DNA of 50,972 bases from Candidatus Nezhaarchaeales archaeon (GTDB taxonomy: Archaea > Thermoproteota > Methanomethylicia > Nezhaarchaeales > JAWCJE01), in contig JAWCJE010000012.1 of the NCBI GenBank assembly GCA_038853715.1, positions 1 to 50,972 of the forward strand. The letters are read 5' to 3'. The notes under the pieces were generated by a model. It searched no databases and was not told the DNA's origin. It worked only from the letters and a program-made list of their open reading frames with translations. Position numbers and translations under genes: made by a program. Shown here piece by piece: positions 16,331-45,363 of this stretch (position 1 is its first letter; each line of letters begins with the position of its first letter).

Positions 16331-17620
16331 TTAAACCGTTCTACTAGGTTTAAGGGGCTTTCGGGCTCGGAAGTAAGCCTCAATACTCCTTTCAAGCTCT
16401 TTAAACATCTTATCGTACTTTCTCTTAAGCTCTTCAAGTGCCTTCCACGCCTCAGCTTTAAGTTGAGGCCTCCCTTCTTCGTATTGTGTACGCGTGATCT
16501 GCCTATGTTTTTCTTCCAGCGCTCGCTACGTCTTGTGGAGGCTCTTTACGATAAGCTTGCTTTCCTCCAGCATTTCCCCGTAAACGGCTTCAATCTTACC
16601 GTAGATCGGCTCGACGGTACTCCAATACACCGGTCTACTTGGTTTCCTTAAGGCATACTTAATCAAGCGCGCCTTAAGCCGTTTATGTGGAAGCGTTGCT
16701 TCGACGTTCCATAGAAGGCGCTTGATATGATCTTTAGCGTACACTACGATGTAATGGTAGTCGTTACCAAGGCTGCCGTAGTTTGTTGTTCTACCTTTAG
16801 GCGTTGTATACAGGTGCATCTTGTACTCACGTTGCTTAAGAGCCTCGTATAACGATTTAATGACGTACACTTTCTCGTTGTATAGTGTAACCCTAAAACC
16901 CACGGTTCTTCTTCCTTTATGGCTCTGTGATACAATGTACAGAGTGAACCCTCTATGTCAATGGTTATGCTGAGCGCGCTGTAAAGCTTTACGTCGCTAT
17001 CTACAGGCGTTAGAGTAAGCTTTTCAAGAAGCCACCAATAGCTCTTGAGCGGCAAGTAAATCCATAATTGCCACGTATAGCCTCCCTTGATATCCCAGCG
17101 CGGCGCTATGCCTACATACCCGTACTTGACGAAGGCCTCCTTGAATAGGAGCGCCAAGTACGAATCAGGTGTATTCAGCACTACTAATACTTGTTGCCAG
17201 TATCGCTTTACGCTTCCGTCGGTGTGCGCTAGATACCATAGTTTAAGCTTTTCCGCGTCGTCTTCATCGAAGTCGCGTTTAGCATGCTTCGTATTCGCTA
17301 GCTGTAACGCTGTTATCCTATCGCGCACTTTAACGTTTAACCTTTTCATCCACCCTCGTAGCGTAGAATACGGTACGTTGAGGTGCTTTGAGAGTTTGTT
17401 TATTGATACGCATTTATTCCAATGTAAGTCCTCAACTAACGCTTTGAAGCGCTGGTTATTGTCGAGAGCCTTATCCATCACTACCTTCTTCGCTTCCTCC
17501 GAAAGCATCGCTAACAAGCATTCAGGAATTACTATCGTCCTCGGCTTACGCTTAGTAAGCTTTAACGTGAGCTTTAACCCTGCTTAGAGGGATCCTGCGA
17601 CCTTTTCCCCATCCAAACCA
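16331..17620 (-). pseudogene. Disabled copy of the HTH-LAGLIDADG element gene (copy 1)
   Basis: Homologous over its length to the intact 433-residue protein at 29604-30905. It reads N-terminal LLAMLSEEAKK, an HTH region (LSKHLNVPYSTLRGWM), two LAGLIDADG-like motifs (LWYLAHTDGSV; LSITIDIEGSL) and a C-terminal coiled coil. It is broken in at least three places: an in-frame TAA near 17583 where the intact copy has CAA; a frameshift around 16744-16903; and a TAG near 16525 where the intact copy has Trp. The 3' end (about 16353-16376) matches the left terminal sequence of the intact element. Its 5' end lacks the intact copy's promoter and terminal repeat. Confidence 0.75.
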
Positions 17621-17833
17621 CTCCCTAGGAATATACTGCGCGTTTAATGCCGTCGATATCGCTATTAGGAGCTTCTTAATGCTCTGTCTATCTAGGTGTT
17701 CGGGTATTGCTTTCTCTTCTCCGTAGGGGAGGCGTGGGCCGTCTGGGCCTACGCCAGCCATTACGCCTATCATACCCGCGACCAACGTCATTAGGAGGGC
17801 GTAATACCTATCTAGGTTTAGGTCTTTCTCCAT
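17552..17833 (-). CDS. Hypothetical protein, possibly truncated by element copy 1
   Basis: 93 residues, not recognised. The N-terminal hydrophobic stretch (YYALLMTLVAGMIGVMAGVG) could be one membrane segment. The second half is basic. Its last third overlaps the start of the disabled element in another frame, so the natural C-terminus may have been lost on insertion. The ATG is preceded by AGGT. It overlaps head-to-head, by a shared CATG, with the plus-strand acetyl-CoA synthetase fragment, so both cannot easily be functional. Confidence 0.35.
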   Translation of the reverse strand: MEKDLNLDRYYALLMTLVAGMIGVMAGVGPDGPRLPYGEEKAIPEHLDRQSIKKLLIAISTALNAQYIPREWFGWGKGRRIPLSRVKAHVKAY

Positions 17834-18173
17834 GTACCTAATGGAGTATATGGAGGTTTATGAGGCTTCGATAAGGGATCCGGAAAAATTCTGGGATGCT
17901 GAAGCCCGTAAACTTGAATGGTTTAGAACTTGGGATAAGGTCTTAGAGTGGGATCCTCCCTTTGCTAAATGGTTTGTTGGAGGTGTTTTAAACGCGTCTT
18001 ACTTATGCGTTGATCATCACGTGAAGGGCTGGAGGAGGAATAAGGTGGCTATGTACTGGGAGGGGGAGCCCGGAGATAGTAGAACGATAAGCTACGCTGA
18101 GCTCTATCGTGAAGTCAATAGGTGTGCGTCAGTTTTGAAAAACCTAGGGTTTAAGAATGTGGATTACGTTTAA
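17832..18173 (+). pseudogene. Acetyl-CoA synthetase, N-terminal fragment
   Basis: Codes only the first 113 residues of an AMP-forming acetyl-CoA synthetase: FWDAEARKLEWFRTWDKVLE, WFVGGVLNASYLCVDHH and DSRTISYAELYREVNRCAS. Full enzymes are about 600-660 residues. The frame stops where the RGDRV...motif should follow, and the next gene is unrelated, so the adenylation core and catalytic C-terminus are absent. It is a truncated pseudogene produced by deletion or rearrangement. Confidence 0.8.
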
Positions 18174-20555: not shown

Positions 20556-21023
20556 ACCCCTCCCCTAAGAAGTCTCAGCTTTAGAGGCAGGAAGTAGTTG
20601 AAGTCTTGATAGATAAGCTAACTGATAAAGCTTATGCTTGAAAGAGCCTTAAGGTGTCAAACGTCGAATCGATCTATGAACCGATCCTACGCGCGGTTTC
20701 CACTAGGGTCTCCAGTAGAAGCACTAATTTTGAAGCTAACCGGTTGAAGACATTCCACTTTAAACTTCGGTTGAAATATATGTTGGAACGTTGAGCTTAA
20801 CGCTTCTAATAAAGCCTAATTGGAAATAACGGCTCCTTGACCTCTATCTCCAATGGAGAATGAGGAAGGTTCGGATTAATGGTTCTCAGGCTTAGAAGCG
20901 GGCCTTAACCCGCCTCCCCAAACCACTAAGTACTTCTCCTTGAGCGTATCTAGCTCTCTTTAAGCGTCGTTTATGCTTCACTCGCTATTCGCGTTAAAAG
21001 CGTTCTACTATTGTACGTCGGCT
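20556..21023. other. 468-base intergenic region
   Basis: No gene recognised. Around 20697-20725 lies a sequence whose reverse complement contains TTCTACTGGAGA, the core of the dispersed motif at 11009 and 50800. There it is part of its own imperfect palindrome (CCACTAGGG/CTCCAGTAG). Confidence 0.35.
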
Positions 21024-29264: not shown

Positions 29265-29573
29265 TTGAAGCCTGAGAGCGATGGGGTTTTTAAAGCGATA
29301 ATCGAAAAGGTTAAACCCTACTTTAAGGAGGGGGTTGGAGGTCACGATTGGCTTCACGTTGAACGCGTCTATAACCTTTGCGTTAGAATAGGTATGAAGG
29401 AGGGCGCCGACCTAGACGTAGTAAGGGCGGCGGCCATACTTCACGACGTTGGAATACCTATGGAAATTAAGCGGGGGGTTAACCATGCGGAGGAGGGTGT
29501 GAAAATAGCCCTTAAAATCCTTAAGGAGGCCGGCTTCCCGGCGGATAAGGTAGATCAGGTGGTTTACGCTTGA
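29265..29573 (+). pseudogene. HD-domain phosphohydrolase, N-terminal part (gene split by an element)
   Basis: Codes 102 residues of a YedJ-like HD hydrolase. GGHDWLHVERVYNLC gives the first histidine and RAAAILHDVGIP gives the HD pair. The frame stops just where the conserved middle should begin, although codons after the stop read GGSRGG, reminiscent of a later family motif. The C-terminal part (HFYEKLLRVKRFMNT) is found at about 31020-31187, on the far side of the LAGLIDADG element. The gene is therefore disrupted. TTG start with upstream GGGGTGG. Confidence 0.75.
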
Positions 29574-29603
29574 GGTGGAAGCCGAGGAGGGCTGATGAAG
29601 GGT

Positions 29604-30905
29604 TTAAATGTTAACCGGTACTAAATCGCTAGGTCTAAGGGGCTTTCGGGCTCGGAAGTAAGCCTCAAAGCGTCTTTCAAGCTCCTTAAACCTTTCATCA
29701 TACCTTTCCTTTAACGTTTCAAGCGCTTTCCACGCTTGAGCTCTAAGTTTTTCTCTTTCCCCTTCGTATTGTGTACGTGTGATCTGCTTCCGCTTACGTT
29801 TTTCTGTTAGTGCTCGCCACGACTCGTGAAGGTTCTTTACGATAAGCCTACTTTCTTCCAGCATCTCCTCGTGAAAGGCTTCAATCTCACTGTACATCGG
29901 TTCGATACTGCTCCAATATACTGGTTTACTCGGCTCACTTAAGGCATACCTGATTAAAAGTGCCTTAAGCCGCTTATGCGGAGGCGTTAGCTTAACGTTC
30001 TCTAGAAGGTGTTTAACGCAAGCTTTAGCGCGTACTTTAATGTGGTAGCAGTTGTCCTTGAGGTGGCCGTAATATGTTGCGGTTCCTTTAAGCGTTGCGT
30101 AAAGGTGCACTCTGTACCCATACCGCTTAAGCGCTTCATACAGCGCCTCAACAACGTATACCTTCTCATTGTATATAACAACCGCGAACTGCGCGGTTTT
30201 TCTTCCTTTACGGTTGCATGTATACACTGAGCCTTCGGTGTCGATGGCTATGCTGAGCACGCTGTAAAGCTTTACGTTGTTATCTATAGGTGTTGGAGTG
30301 CGCCGCTTAAGAAGCCACCAGTAGATCTTAAGCGGCAGTAAAACCCATAACATCCACACGTAGTTTTCTTTGTCATCCCTGTACGGTCCCACGCCCACGT
30401 GCCCGTACCTGCCAAAAACCTCCTTGAAGAGGAGCGCCAAGTACGGGTCAGGCGTCCTCAGTATTACTTGCACCTGTTGGCCATTCTGTATTACACTTCC
30501 ATCGGTGTGCACAAAGTACCATAACTTGAGCCTTTCCGCATCGTTGCCGTCGAAGTCACGCTTAGGATACTTATACCTTCCCGTTTTCACCAACTGTAAC
30601 GCCGTTACATTATCACGTATTTTAACGTTCATTTCATACCTCATCCACCTCCACAGCGTAGTAAACGGTACGCCGAGGCGCTTCGACAACTTTCTCACCG
30701 ATACGCCCTTATGCCAGTGTAATTCCTCAATTAACACTTTAAAGCGCTGGATATCGTTAACCGCCCCGTCCATCACCGTCCTCTTCGCTTCCTCAGAGAG
30801 CATCGCTAATAACTCGTTTGGTATCATTATTTTCCAAGGGTTGCCGAAGTTCACCGTTAACGTTAACCCTGCTTGGAGGGGTTCTGCGGCCCTTTCCCCC
30901 GTCAC
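29604..30905 (-). CDS. HTH plus double-LAGLIDADG endonuclease-like protein (intact element gene)
   Basis: 433 residues. An N-terminal strand and helix (IMIPNELLAMLSEEAKR) are followed by a helix-turn-helix (VSVRKLSKRLGVPFTTLWRW, about residues 70-90). Next are two LAGLIDADG-like repeats, LWYFVHTDGSV and LSIAIDTEGSV, keeping the acidic residue (Asp, Glu) that ends each motif. A C-terminal coiled coil ends in YFRARKPLRP. Free-standing LAGLIDADG proteins are usually homing endonucleases. Here the gene has its own TATA box and GAGGTG ribosome site before the GTG start, and imperfect inverted repeats at both ends. It lies antisense inside an HD gene. The last codons read into flanking DNA. Confidence 0.75.
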   Translation of the reverse strand: MTGERAAEPLQAGLTLTVNFGNPWKIMIPNELLAMLSEEAKRTVMDGAVNDIQRFKVLIEELHWHKGVSVRKLSKRLGVPFTTLWRWMRYEMNVKIRDNVTALQLVKTGRYKYPKRDFDGNDAERLKLWYFVHTDGSVIQNGQQVQVILRTPDPYLALLFKEVFGRYGHVGVGPYRDDKENYVWMLWVLLPLKIYWWLLKRRTPTPIDNNVKLYSVLSIAIDTEGSVYTCNRKGRKTAQFAVVIYNEKVYVVEALYEALKRYGYRVHLYATLKGTATYYGHLKDNCYHIKVRAKACVKHLLENVKLTPPHKRLKALLIRYALSEPSKPVYWSSIEPMYSEIEAFHEEMLEESRLIVKNLHESWRALTEKRKRKQITRTQYEGEREKLRAQAWKALETLKERYDERFKELERRFEAYFRARKPLRPSDLVPVNI

Positions 30906-30957
30906 GGTAACTCACCTCGAAACGTTTTTATAGCCCCGAAGCCCCTTTAGTGGCTAG
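29629..30957. mobile_element. Candidate HTH-LAGLIDADG element with imperfect terminal inverted repeats
   Basis: The left end reads CTAGGTCTAAGGGGCTTTCG then GGCT (29629-29652). The reverse complement of the right end (30932-30957) reads CTAGCCACTAAAGGGGCTTC then GGGGCT. The shared core is CTAA(A)GGGGCTT..GGGCT. It carries one gene, its promoter and nothing else, and separates the two parts of an HD-hydrolase gene. The same left end is present in copy 1 (about 16353-16376). Exact boundaries and any target duplication are uncertain. Confidence 0.5.
30925..30933 (-). promoter_or_regulatory. TATA box of the element gene
   Basis: On the minus strand CTATAAAAA lies about 20-28 bases before the GTG start (30905), with GAGGTG between them. 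It sits inside the right terminal repeat region. Confidence 0.5.
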
Positions 30958-30965
30958 GGAGGGGT

Positions 30966-30995
30966 CAGCAGCGCGCAGAGGCGCGCTACTGTTTT
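30966..30995 (+). terminator. GC-rich hairpin followed by T-run
   Basis: CAGcAGCGCGC-AGAG-GCGCGCTaCTG forms a ten-pair stem with one mismatch and a four-base loop, followed by TTTT. It lies just outside the right end of the element and before the remaining HD-gene fragment. It may end plus-strand transcription or stabilise an RNA end. Confidence 0.45.
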
Positions 30996-31019
30996 AATCA
31001 CCTCTCATTGTGTCAGCCG

Positions 31020-31187
31020 TTCATCATACCCCTCCCGGCTTCAACCATAGCCCATTTCTACGAGAAGCTATTAAGGGTTAAAAGGTTCATGAATACGGAG
31101 GAGGGTAGGCGGTTGGCTGAAGGCCGTCATCGTTTCATGAAGCTCTTCCTAAAACGTTTCTTAGCCGAGGTCGAAGGGTTAAGCTAG
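31020..31187 (+). pseudogene. HD-domain phosphohydrolase, C-terminal part
   Basis: The open frame reads STIAHFYEKLLRVKRFMNT, then EEGRRLAEGRHRFMKLFLKR and ends AEVEGLS with TAG at 31185. This is the C-terminal signature of the HD hydrolases whose N-terminal part is at 29265-29573, in the same orientation. It has no start codon of its own in a sensible place. The part between (middle helices) is missing or not recognisable. The 5' limit given is approximate. Confidence 0.7.
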
Positions 31188-35355: not shown

Positions 35356-35656
35356 CCTATCCTTAGAGGAAAGTAAGCGAGTTTTGAAGAGCCTCCACGA
35401 GGCGTGGCAAGCGCTGAAACGTAGGTGGAAGGAGGTTGCGCGTACACAATATGAAGAAGAAAGAAGCAAGCTTAGAGATAAGGCATGGAGAGGGCTCGAA
35501 GCCTTAAAGGAGAAGTACGACGGAAGGTTTGAAGAGCTTAAAAAGCGCATTGAGGCTTACTTCCAAGCCCATAAGCCCCTTAAACACTATGAGGTGCGTT
35601 TTAACTTCCATGAGTTTATCGGGGGTGAAATCTATGAAGCCCATGACTCTACGTAG
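35356..35656 (+). pseudogene. C-terminal remnant of HTH-LAGLIDADG element gene (copy 3)
   Basis: An open frame reads SLEESKRVLKSLHEAWQALK, then RTQYEEERSKLRDKAWRGLE, KEKYDGRFEELKKRIEAYF and QAHKPLK. It matches the last 85 or so residues of the intact protein at 29604-30905, in opposite chromosomal orientation. The HTH and both LAGLIDADG motifs are missing. After HKPLK the reading frame continues into unrelated sequence to 35656. It lies between the dehydrogenase operon promoter region and the deacetylase-fold gene. Confidence 0.7.
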
Positions 35657-38316: not shown

Positions 38317-38456
38317 CTTGTAACACCCGTGGCGTTAAAGGGTTTACGTTACCACTTAAATAAGCTTGTACGCTATTAAATAGTTAAGTCTAGAAGGTCC
38401 TAGATTTTTCATTGCATGGTGCAATCTTGAACCTCGTAGTTCCTCCTTTACGCCTT

Positions 38457-38540
38457 ATGCACATACTAAGCCTTCACAGTCGATGGTTATGCTGAGTACG
38501 CGGTAAAACTTCACGTTACTATCTATGGGTGTTGGAATCC
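38457..38540 (-). pseudogene. Internal remnant of HTH-LAGLIDADG element gene (copy 4)
   Basis: Reads IPTPIDSNVKFYRVLSITID then CEGLVCA and stop. It matches the segment around the second LAGLIDADG motif of the intact protein (PTPIDNNVKLYSVLSIAIDT). Only about 84 bases are recognisable. It lies next to a transposase pseudogene in a region rich in decayed mobile sequence. Confidence 0.65.
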
Positions 38541-38645
38541 TTCAACCATCCTATCAATTTTGATTAAGCGGTTTTGGATTCTCCCTAGAATCTCTTCAAA
38601 TTTACTTTGTAATATGTTAATATTTTCATCATTAAGTCTCCTTCA

Positions 38646-39347
38646 TCAATTATAGCTTTGTGGCTTAATTATTGTTATGTATTTGCTTCTTTGTTTTGGT
38701 ATTGGGTTTGTGTTTATAGGTTTATGATTGTTTATGGATGCTTTTATTTCTAGCTTTTTTGCTATGTTTGGTAGCTCCTTAGTCTTAACGTTTACCACGA
38801 AGTGGATTTTAATGTAGCGCTTCTTCTTACCGTGTAAGCGTGTAACCCATCCACCGGACTTATGGACACTAATACCGCTCGAATTAACGGCTATGGGTTC
38901 ACTTGAACCCCTCAACGAGCCGCGTAAAGATAGGTTAAGCGTTAAAATACGCCTCCTAATCCATGAGTAGTCGGCTGATGGAAGCCTGGGGATAAGCCTA
39001 TTCAAGGCTCTAGTGAAGCCTTCAAGCTGCCCGTAAGGCATGGAGAAAAGATAACGTATAACAGCGAGGAACTTAACATACCTACCGGTAATCTTAAAGG
39101 GTCATCCGACCTTACCATTATTCAAATCCATAAGCTCGTCATCATAGTTTTCAAGAAAGTCCAAGCTAAGAAGGAGCTCACCACGCCTAACAAGCCTCTC
39201 ATCAACAACCAATACATAGATTAAAACAAGACATAAGAAGCTTAAAGAATTAAGCCACAAAGCATAAAGTTTCAAACATGGGACTCCATGCGGATAAAAC
39301 ACAACTTCGTATATACCATTAGCAACCTCCTTAGCTTTAACGAGCAC
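38646..39347 (-). pseudogene. IS5-like DDE transposase pseudogene
   Basis: One continuous frame interrupted by TGA at 39102-39104, where the 1.5 kb copy has AGG (Arg in GRPFKIT). The N-terminal part has VDERLVRRGELLLSLDFLEN; the middle has GRYVKFLAVIRYLFSMPYGQ and SWIRRRILTLNLSLRGSL. The position of the first catalytic aspartate reads IAVNSSGISVHKSGGW, with Asn instead of Asp. After about NVKTKEL the sequence no longer resembles a transposase. It is inactive on three grounds: nonsense codon, lost catalytic residue and degenerate C-terminus. Confidence 0.7.
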
Positions 39348-45061: not shown

Positions 45062-45363
45062 GTTTTCGCCTTTAACCGCCGTAATCGACAACCCCCTCCT
45101 AACCGTTTCTCTACCGGTAAGTGTGGCGTTGTCATCATCAATAACACCCCTCTAGTGTACGCTTTAAGCTTCGTTAATGCTGAGGTTAAAGGCGAAGTAC
45201 GATGGGAAATTCAACGAGCTAGAGGAGCGTATTAAGGCTCACTTTACGCCTTGAAGCATACTGTTTTTACGAATTATCAGCGGGGAGTTTAGCTTTAAGT
45301 GGATCGTTAAAGGAGCTTGAAGGATTCTTCGGTTCAATTTTTTAGCGAAGTGGAAGCTTAAGT
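45062..45363. other. 302-base intergenic region with element remnant
   Basis: Apart from the LAGLIDADG-element remnant at 45180-45254, no gene or RNA was recognised. Confidence 0.4.
45180..45254 (+). pseudogene. C-terminal remnant of HTH-LAGLIDADG element gene (copy 5)
   Basis: The frame LRLKAKYDGKFNELEERIKA then HFTP and TGA matches the coiled-coil end of the intact protein (KERYDERFKELERRFEAYF). Only about 25 codons remain, and the KPL end is lost. It is the shortest recognisable piece and the assignment rests on this one match. Confidence 0.5.

Follow-up and report, generated by a model that had tools for sequence, protein, structure and literature searches.

We identified a multicopy element in the genome of a Candidatus Nezhaarchaeales archaeon, one copy of which interrupts a gene for an HD hydrolase. 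With a probability of roughly 0.55, this copy was given by a lineage-specific archaeal element that spreads by endonuclease cutting and repair copying from its 3' side. The element is probably a stand-alone LAGLIDADG gene turned into a general mobile element that spread by such 3'-side break-repair copying. The window is the whole stretch of 50,972 nucleotides that was analysed (contig JAWCJE010000012.1, positions 1 to 50,972), and the positions below refer to it unless another locus is named. The interrupted gene and the unit inside it comprise the following features.

29265..29573, plus strand: N-terminal portion of the interrupted HD hydrolase gene (PF01966, Pfam HD, E 6.5e-10; homologue alignment)
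about 31040..31187, plus strand: C-terminal portion of the interrupted HD hydrolase gene (alignment to class-level homologues)
29574..31046, minus strand: complete mobile unit of 1473 bp as present in the window (outer inverted ends; left boundary at the divergence point of the C2, C14 and C6-end copies)
29604..30905, minus strand: predicted mobility protein of 433 aa with HTH, LAGLIDADG motifs and coiled coil, starting at GTG
30633..30773, minus strand: helix-turn-helix (HTH) region, aa 45-91 (PF05225, 21.7 bits, above the cut-off; model pLDDT about 62-90)
30492..30530, minus strand: LAGLIDADG-like motif 1, LKLWYFVHTDGSV, acid D135 (HTDGSV invariant in six copies)
30225..30257, minus strand: LAGLIDADG-like motif 2, LSIAIDTEGSV, acid E224 (EGS invariant in six copies; PF14528 sub-threshold)
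29652..29915, minus strand: coiled coil at the C-terminus, aa 331-418 (long helices with a mean pLDDT of mostly 67-92)
30926..30932, minus strand: TATA box TATAAAA (conserved in the C2, C14, C6-end and C22 copies)
30957..31036, minus strand: structured left block, in which the outer stem GGGAGGGG/CCCCTCCC encloses ATGATGA ... CTGA motifs together with a hairpin (folding, four-copy alignment, consensus fold)
31017..31046, minus strand: left outer inverted end GGTTGAAGCCGGGAGGGGTATGATGAACGG (local alignment)
29574..29603, plus strand: right outer inverted end GGTGGAAGCCGAGGAGGGCTGATGAAGGG (local alignment; not found 3' of other copies)
30932..30950, minus strand: left inner arm CTAAAGGGGCTTCGGGGCT of the GGGGCTT inverted pair (conserved in other copies)
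29634..29652, plus strand: right inner arm TCTAAGGGGCTTTCGGGCT of the GGGGCTT inverted pair (conserved in other copies)

The HD hydrolase reading frame starts at 29265, breaks at 29573, resumes at about 31040 and ends at 31187. Its N part matches the Pfam HD family, while its C part (ASTIAHFYEKLLRVKRFMNTEEGRRLAEGRHRFMK) aligns with the C-terminus of 18 class-level homologues, so the sequence-only reading was right that an antisense unit splits a single HD-hydrolase gene. The comparison it had suggested, with relatives whose gene is uninterrupted, was carried out with class-level relatives; these carry the gene whole, most of the 18 homologues being 202-229 aa. Against them about 50-60 codons are absent here, the lost segment lying around HSFS...LEAKVLSDADRLDAMGAIGIYR, which agrees with the earlier remark that part of the middle of the gene is missing. 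The alignment supports the view that insertion of the unit may have been accompanied by a deletion in the HD gene. Intron- and intein-borne homing elements are unlike this arrangement, since the unit runs opposite to the HD gene, some HD residues are absent and the copies are mostly intergenic.

The 433-aa protein is predicted to be a stand-alone HTH-LAGLIDADG endonuclease. The HTH, the two LAGLIDADG-like motifs and the coiled coil first described from the letters were confirmed by PF05225, by the motifs and by the model helices, respectively, and both motifs hold an acidic residue (HTDGSV, D135; DTEGS, E224). A search with LAGLIDADG profiles found a PF14528 region (Pfam LAGLIDADG_3) on aa 221-304, but its score of 19.9 bits was below the cut-off of 22.5. 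The PDB sequence search with this protein gave no match, and searches of NCBIfam, PHROGs and PADLOC gave nothing informative on it. An AlphaFold2 model was built from a four-row alignment and reached a mean pLDDT of 56.5; the model is shallow because the alignment was restricted to the window sequence and the archaeal protein L059. The top PDB matches of this low-confidence model in Foldseek were I-SceI (E 1.9e-4), bI3 maturase, I-AniI and WhiA, a ranking taken as supportive only because the model is poor. Among six near-full copies in the genome dN/dS was 0.24-0.36 at dS 0.5-0.8, and D135 and E224 were invariant, which indicates that the LAGLIDADG protein was under selection throughout the spread. 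The gene was also said to have its own TATA box, and TATAAAA is indeed kept in four other copies.

The genome searched contains 1,549,558 bases in 30 contigs, is 95% complete and is the single genome of this family in the comparison. The 433-aa protein gave 65 matches in it, including the six near-full copies (the window's own counted), which are 65-70% identical, differ at 30-35% of residues and include one with in-frame stops. The remaining matches were copies truncated at the end of a contig and dozens of degraded fragments. Several contigs have a boundary inside a copy, as is usual where repeats break assemblies. Counted from the genome stretches around the matches, copies and remnants together number about 60, and 47 are interior (not limited by contig ends). 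They are mostly intergenic and lie in both orientations, with no orientation bias relative to the neighbouring genes. Further copies and remnants in the window are listed below.

16334..17920, minus strand: second element copy, frameshifted, with part of ORF-A and the LAGLIDADG gene
20881..20977, minus strand: short 3'-end remnant
35363..35585, plus strand: 3'-end remnant
38406..38541, minus strand: internal remnant beside an IS5-family copy
45183..45257, plus strand: short 3'-end remnant

An ordinary free-standing homing gene, arriving once or a few times (on an integrated plasmid or virus, for example), amplified through duplication of segments and recombination by the host and then decaying, is not a likely source of these copies. 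Such genes of the HTH-LAGLIDADG type do occur singly in other archaea, and extra flank is common to some of the copies here. However, the flanks of nearly all copies are unrelated past 30-97 nt, many different intergenic spacers are occupied, and no relatives were found in the viral contigs scanned.

Most copies share the 3' end and are ragged at the 5' end. The 3' terminus was kept in 39 of the 47 interior copies, while the left block was reached in 7. The former count used a 3'-end profile and was repeated without it using equal protein segments, which from N to C matched 9, 9, 12, 15 and 32 interior loci; differing conservation of the segments could contribute to this gradient. In the first protein search the C-terminus was reached by 43 matches versus 15 for the N-terminus. 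Downstream of the stop codon about 25-30 nt are common to most copies (60-97 nt in some pairs), after which the flanks are unrelated, and the 3' end lies near a hairpin and a T-rich stretch. Remnants of about 80-115 nt from the 3' end form a discrete group. Identical short stretches were present at the junctions of C15 (CTTGAAA) and C21 (CGAGG), which could be simple later deletions rather than insertion scars. No target-site duplication was seen on reading the flanks of the window copy.

Two other explanations of the common 3' end were considered. The first is a host-recruited repeat, of which the 3' end is kept by selection as a terminator or RNA, so that truncation reflects retention and not the mode of copying. 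The discrete group of short remnants would suit it, but their orientation and placement with respect to neighbouring genes vary, they are diverged and frameshifted, and we consider this explanation highly unlikely. The second, marginally less probable still, is RNA-mediated, LINE-like copying, in which the target would be nicked by the LAGLIDADG protein and the element's RNA then copied by a reverse transcriptase, beginning at the 3' end. A fixed 3' end close to the hairpin and T-rich stretch, together with graded 5' truncation, would be expected of it and is shared with non-LTR retrotransposons. Against this, no reverse transcriptase (PF00078) was found in the 95% complete genome by a search that was positive in 3 of 14 control genomes, and neither target duplications nor A-tails were seen.

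The stretch 29574-31046 was taken as the unit on two grounds, its outer inverted pair and a left boundary at which the sequences of C2, C14 and C6-end cease to match the window. Some caution is due on the right, as only one copy shows that outer end. The outer pair, about 30 bp, gave a local alignment score of 38, and 0 of 200 mononucleotide shuffles were as good. Only the window copy has both outer ends inside the contig, and only there are the outer inverted ends complete; among about thirty copies tested no other gave a significant outer pair, and the right outer end was not found at the 3' side of the others. The GGGGCTT inverted ends pointed out in the sequence-only reading are real and conserved, but they are not the outermost, the longer pair at 29574-29603 and 31017-31046 lying outside them. 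The unit, though correctly described as antisense, is accordingly 1473 bp with the outer ends counted and not 1.3 kb. The left inner arm is promoter-proximal, while the right one doubles as the coding end of the 433-aa ORF. With up to 3 mismatches CTAAAGGGGCTTNNGGGCT was matched at 44 places in the genome, whereas the reversed control pattern gave 3. Five of the 44, all exact, are left ends, and some fifteen of the rest fall at the 3' end of a copy. Homologues within this genome do carry the GGGGCTT ends; most copies retain the 3' arm, and the left arm is confined to the five whose left side survives. The idea of a mobile unit with inverted ends therefore holds for a few copies, but most are 5'-truncated and do not have both ends.

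The unit resembles DDE insertion sequences, IS5-family copies included, in being short, having inverted ends, occurring in many copies and disrupting a gene. It differs from them in its ends, in containing no DDE transposase and in the target duplication, of which none was found; terminal inverted repeats of their kind are present in the window copy only. We consider it unlikely that the unit is a passenger, moved in trans by a DDE or other transposase acting on its inverted ends, with the LAGLIDADG protein as cargo or regulator. The inverted ends of about 30 bp in the window copy and the presence of IS5-family copies, often adjacent, argue for this, whereas the IS5 ends GCTTTGTGGYTTAATTCTT are unlike those of the unit, and IS5 was rejected as its mover on this ground. 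Moreover, the left end matched no other locus in the rest of the genome above background, no other element with the same ends was found in the genome, purifying selection acts on the LAGLIDADG ORF, and the flanks of the window copy have no target duplication that we could find. A trans-acting transposase may perhaps be missing from the 95% complete assembly, and this was counted against the endonuclease-driven explanation that we prefer. IS5-family copies with these ends are located at 1587-1837 and about 38590-39268 of the window and also in C2, C15, C19 and C21; four of them adjoin fragments of the LAGLIDADG element in the same orientation, and in C15 and C21 the two are directly joined.

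The structured left block spans about 130 nt and occurs in the window copy as well as in three copies at contig ends. Folding z-scores were -4.4, -4.0 and -3.6 in three copies, better than all shuffles. The block is nearly invariant except in the hairpin, of which the stem differs in each of the four copies while complementarity is kept. Since RNAalifold credited only two pairs with two-sided changes, the hairpins being aligned with gaps, the case for covariation rests on reading the four stems. The arrangement GGGAGGGG-TATGATGA ... CTGA-CCCCTCCC, with C/D-like motifs beside the closing stem, is found in 3 of the 4 left blocks, and the fourth (C6-end) has CTCCTCCC with a G-U pair. Exact matches to GGGAGGGGTATGATGAA in the genome are confined to the four left blocks. 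These motifs resemble an archaeal box C/D RNA, but Rfam lends this no support, with 14.3 bits (sR28) and 14.2 bits (sR5) against cut-offs of 39 and 40, respectively; the spacing between its boxes is too short for a usual box C/D guide.

The fuller order of the element is left structured block, TATA, ORF-B, ORF-A, LAGLIDADG gene and 3' hairpin. ORF-B (about 96 aa, with a CDVCG...CEECRRKYH motif) and/or ORF-A (about 160 aa) precede the LAGLIDADG gene in the C14, C2, C6-end, C22, C24, C21, C7 and C6 copies, and no known family was found for either. Both are missing from the window copy, and they are dispensable in some copies. In the window copy the TATA block meets the LAGLIDADG start at GGTGA, which is common to both sides, and the join may be read as a short-repeat deletion. 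Upstream of the left block, the C2, C14 and C6-end copies have a 53-aa ORF ending in VGLEAPVNASTLSSAAV (L113:1453-1614, minus strand; equivalents in L114 and L115; C1:5541-5657). It has no known family, and family searches gave no support for this peptide as a TnpB or ORF end.

Break-repair copying is proposed because the fixed 3' end, the ragged 5' end and the microhomology at the C15 and C21 junctions fit it. The LAGLIDADG protein would cut the chromosome at loosely specified places, and repair of the break would copy the element from its 3' side, often aborting early. The open end would then be joined via microhomology, with local deletions and copies truncated at the 5' end as the outcome. 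The window copy may have been made by aborted copying, or from a full copy that later lost ORF-B by the GGTGA short-repeat deletion.

The 433-aa protein had no match in eight genomes of the same order and other close relatives. Among 398 genomes of the phylum the remaining matches were weak and one per genome, and the contigs of 84,980 species scanned gave one relative, with 26% identity. Free-standing archaeal HTH-LAGLIDADG homing endonucleases (L059, 328 aa; L062, 354 aa) have the same HTH and LAGLIDADG architecture at 25-28% identity; in other archaea, however, there is one match per genome and no repeat family was seen, compared with about 60 copies here. The repeat family thus appears to be lineage-specific, being found in this genome only, the one genome of its family in the comparison. 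In two different archaeal families, L009 (G054) and L061 (G139) have the same gene pair, in which a protein of 210-227 aa with a conserved C-terminal part is followed by a LAGLIDADG-like protein.

A homing endonuclease is ordinarily restricted to a single site, and its gene is usually single-copy. The occurrence of a homing gene as a repeat throughout a genome, dozens of its copies being decayed, is a natural test of the change from homing gene to transposon. If it is true that the endonuclease is the mobility enzyme, this would be a route of transposition that uses no transposase, recombinase or reverse transcriptase. We suggest only tentatively that the element may represent a distinct class of prokaryotic transposable elements, in which a LAGLIDADG endonuclease replaces the transposase and DNA copying from the structured 3' end of the element installs full or 5'-truncated copies at loose targets. 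The closest precedent is WHO10 of the yeast Torulaspora globosa, of which strain-specific stand-alone copies, 72-80% identical, lie at five unlinked loci (PMC7282813). Some of them interrupt genes without duplication, and the integration mechanism was called unclear by the authors (PMC7282813). The WHO10 protein fuses an intein to a zinc finger, and fragments of FBA1 are carried along (PMC7282813). Both are stand-alone genes of the LAGLIDADG superfamily at several non-homologous loci, with a copy identity of 65-70% in our case. The zinc finger is fused in WHO10, whereas the protein here has an HTH and a coiled coil, and the Cys motifs are in the separate ORF-B. The present element is archaeal, has inverted ends and a structured left block, numbers about 60 copies and shows 5' truncation. 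The end of the 53-aa ORF upstream of the C2, C14 and C6-end copies may or may not be a carried host-gene fragment like those of FBA1 in WHO10. Given this precedent (PMC7282813), the suggestion of a wholly undescribed type of mobile element is not supported. No description of an archaeal counterpart was found in the literature searched, which was covered partly by titles and abstracts, with subscription journals mostly outside the scope.

Two further observations concern copies and remnants. The copies at C2:86983-87180 and C2:96186-96380 are about 80% alike in the element, while their 97-nt 3' flank is 99% identical and seems to have spread or been converted separately. Remnants of the 3' end also lie tail to tail, about 100-145 nt apart, at C3:843 (plus strand) and 945 (minus strand) and at C14:8381 (plus strand) and 8525 (minus strand).
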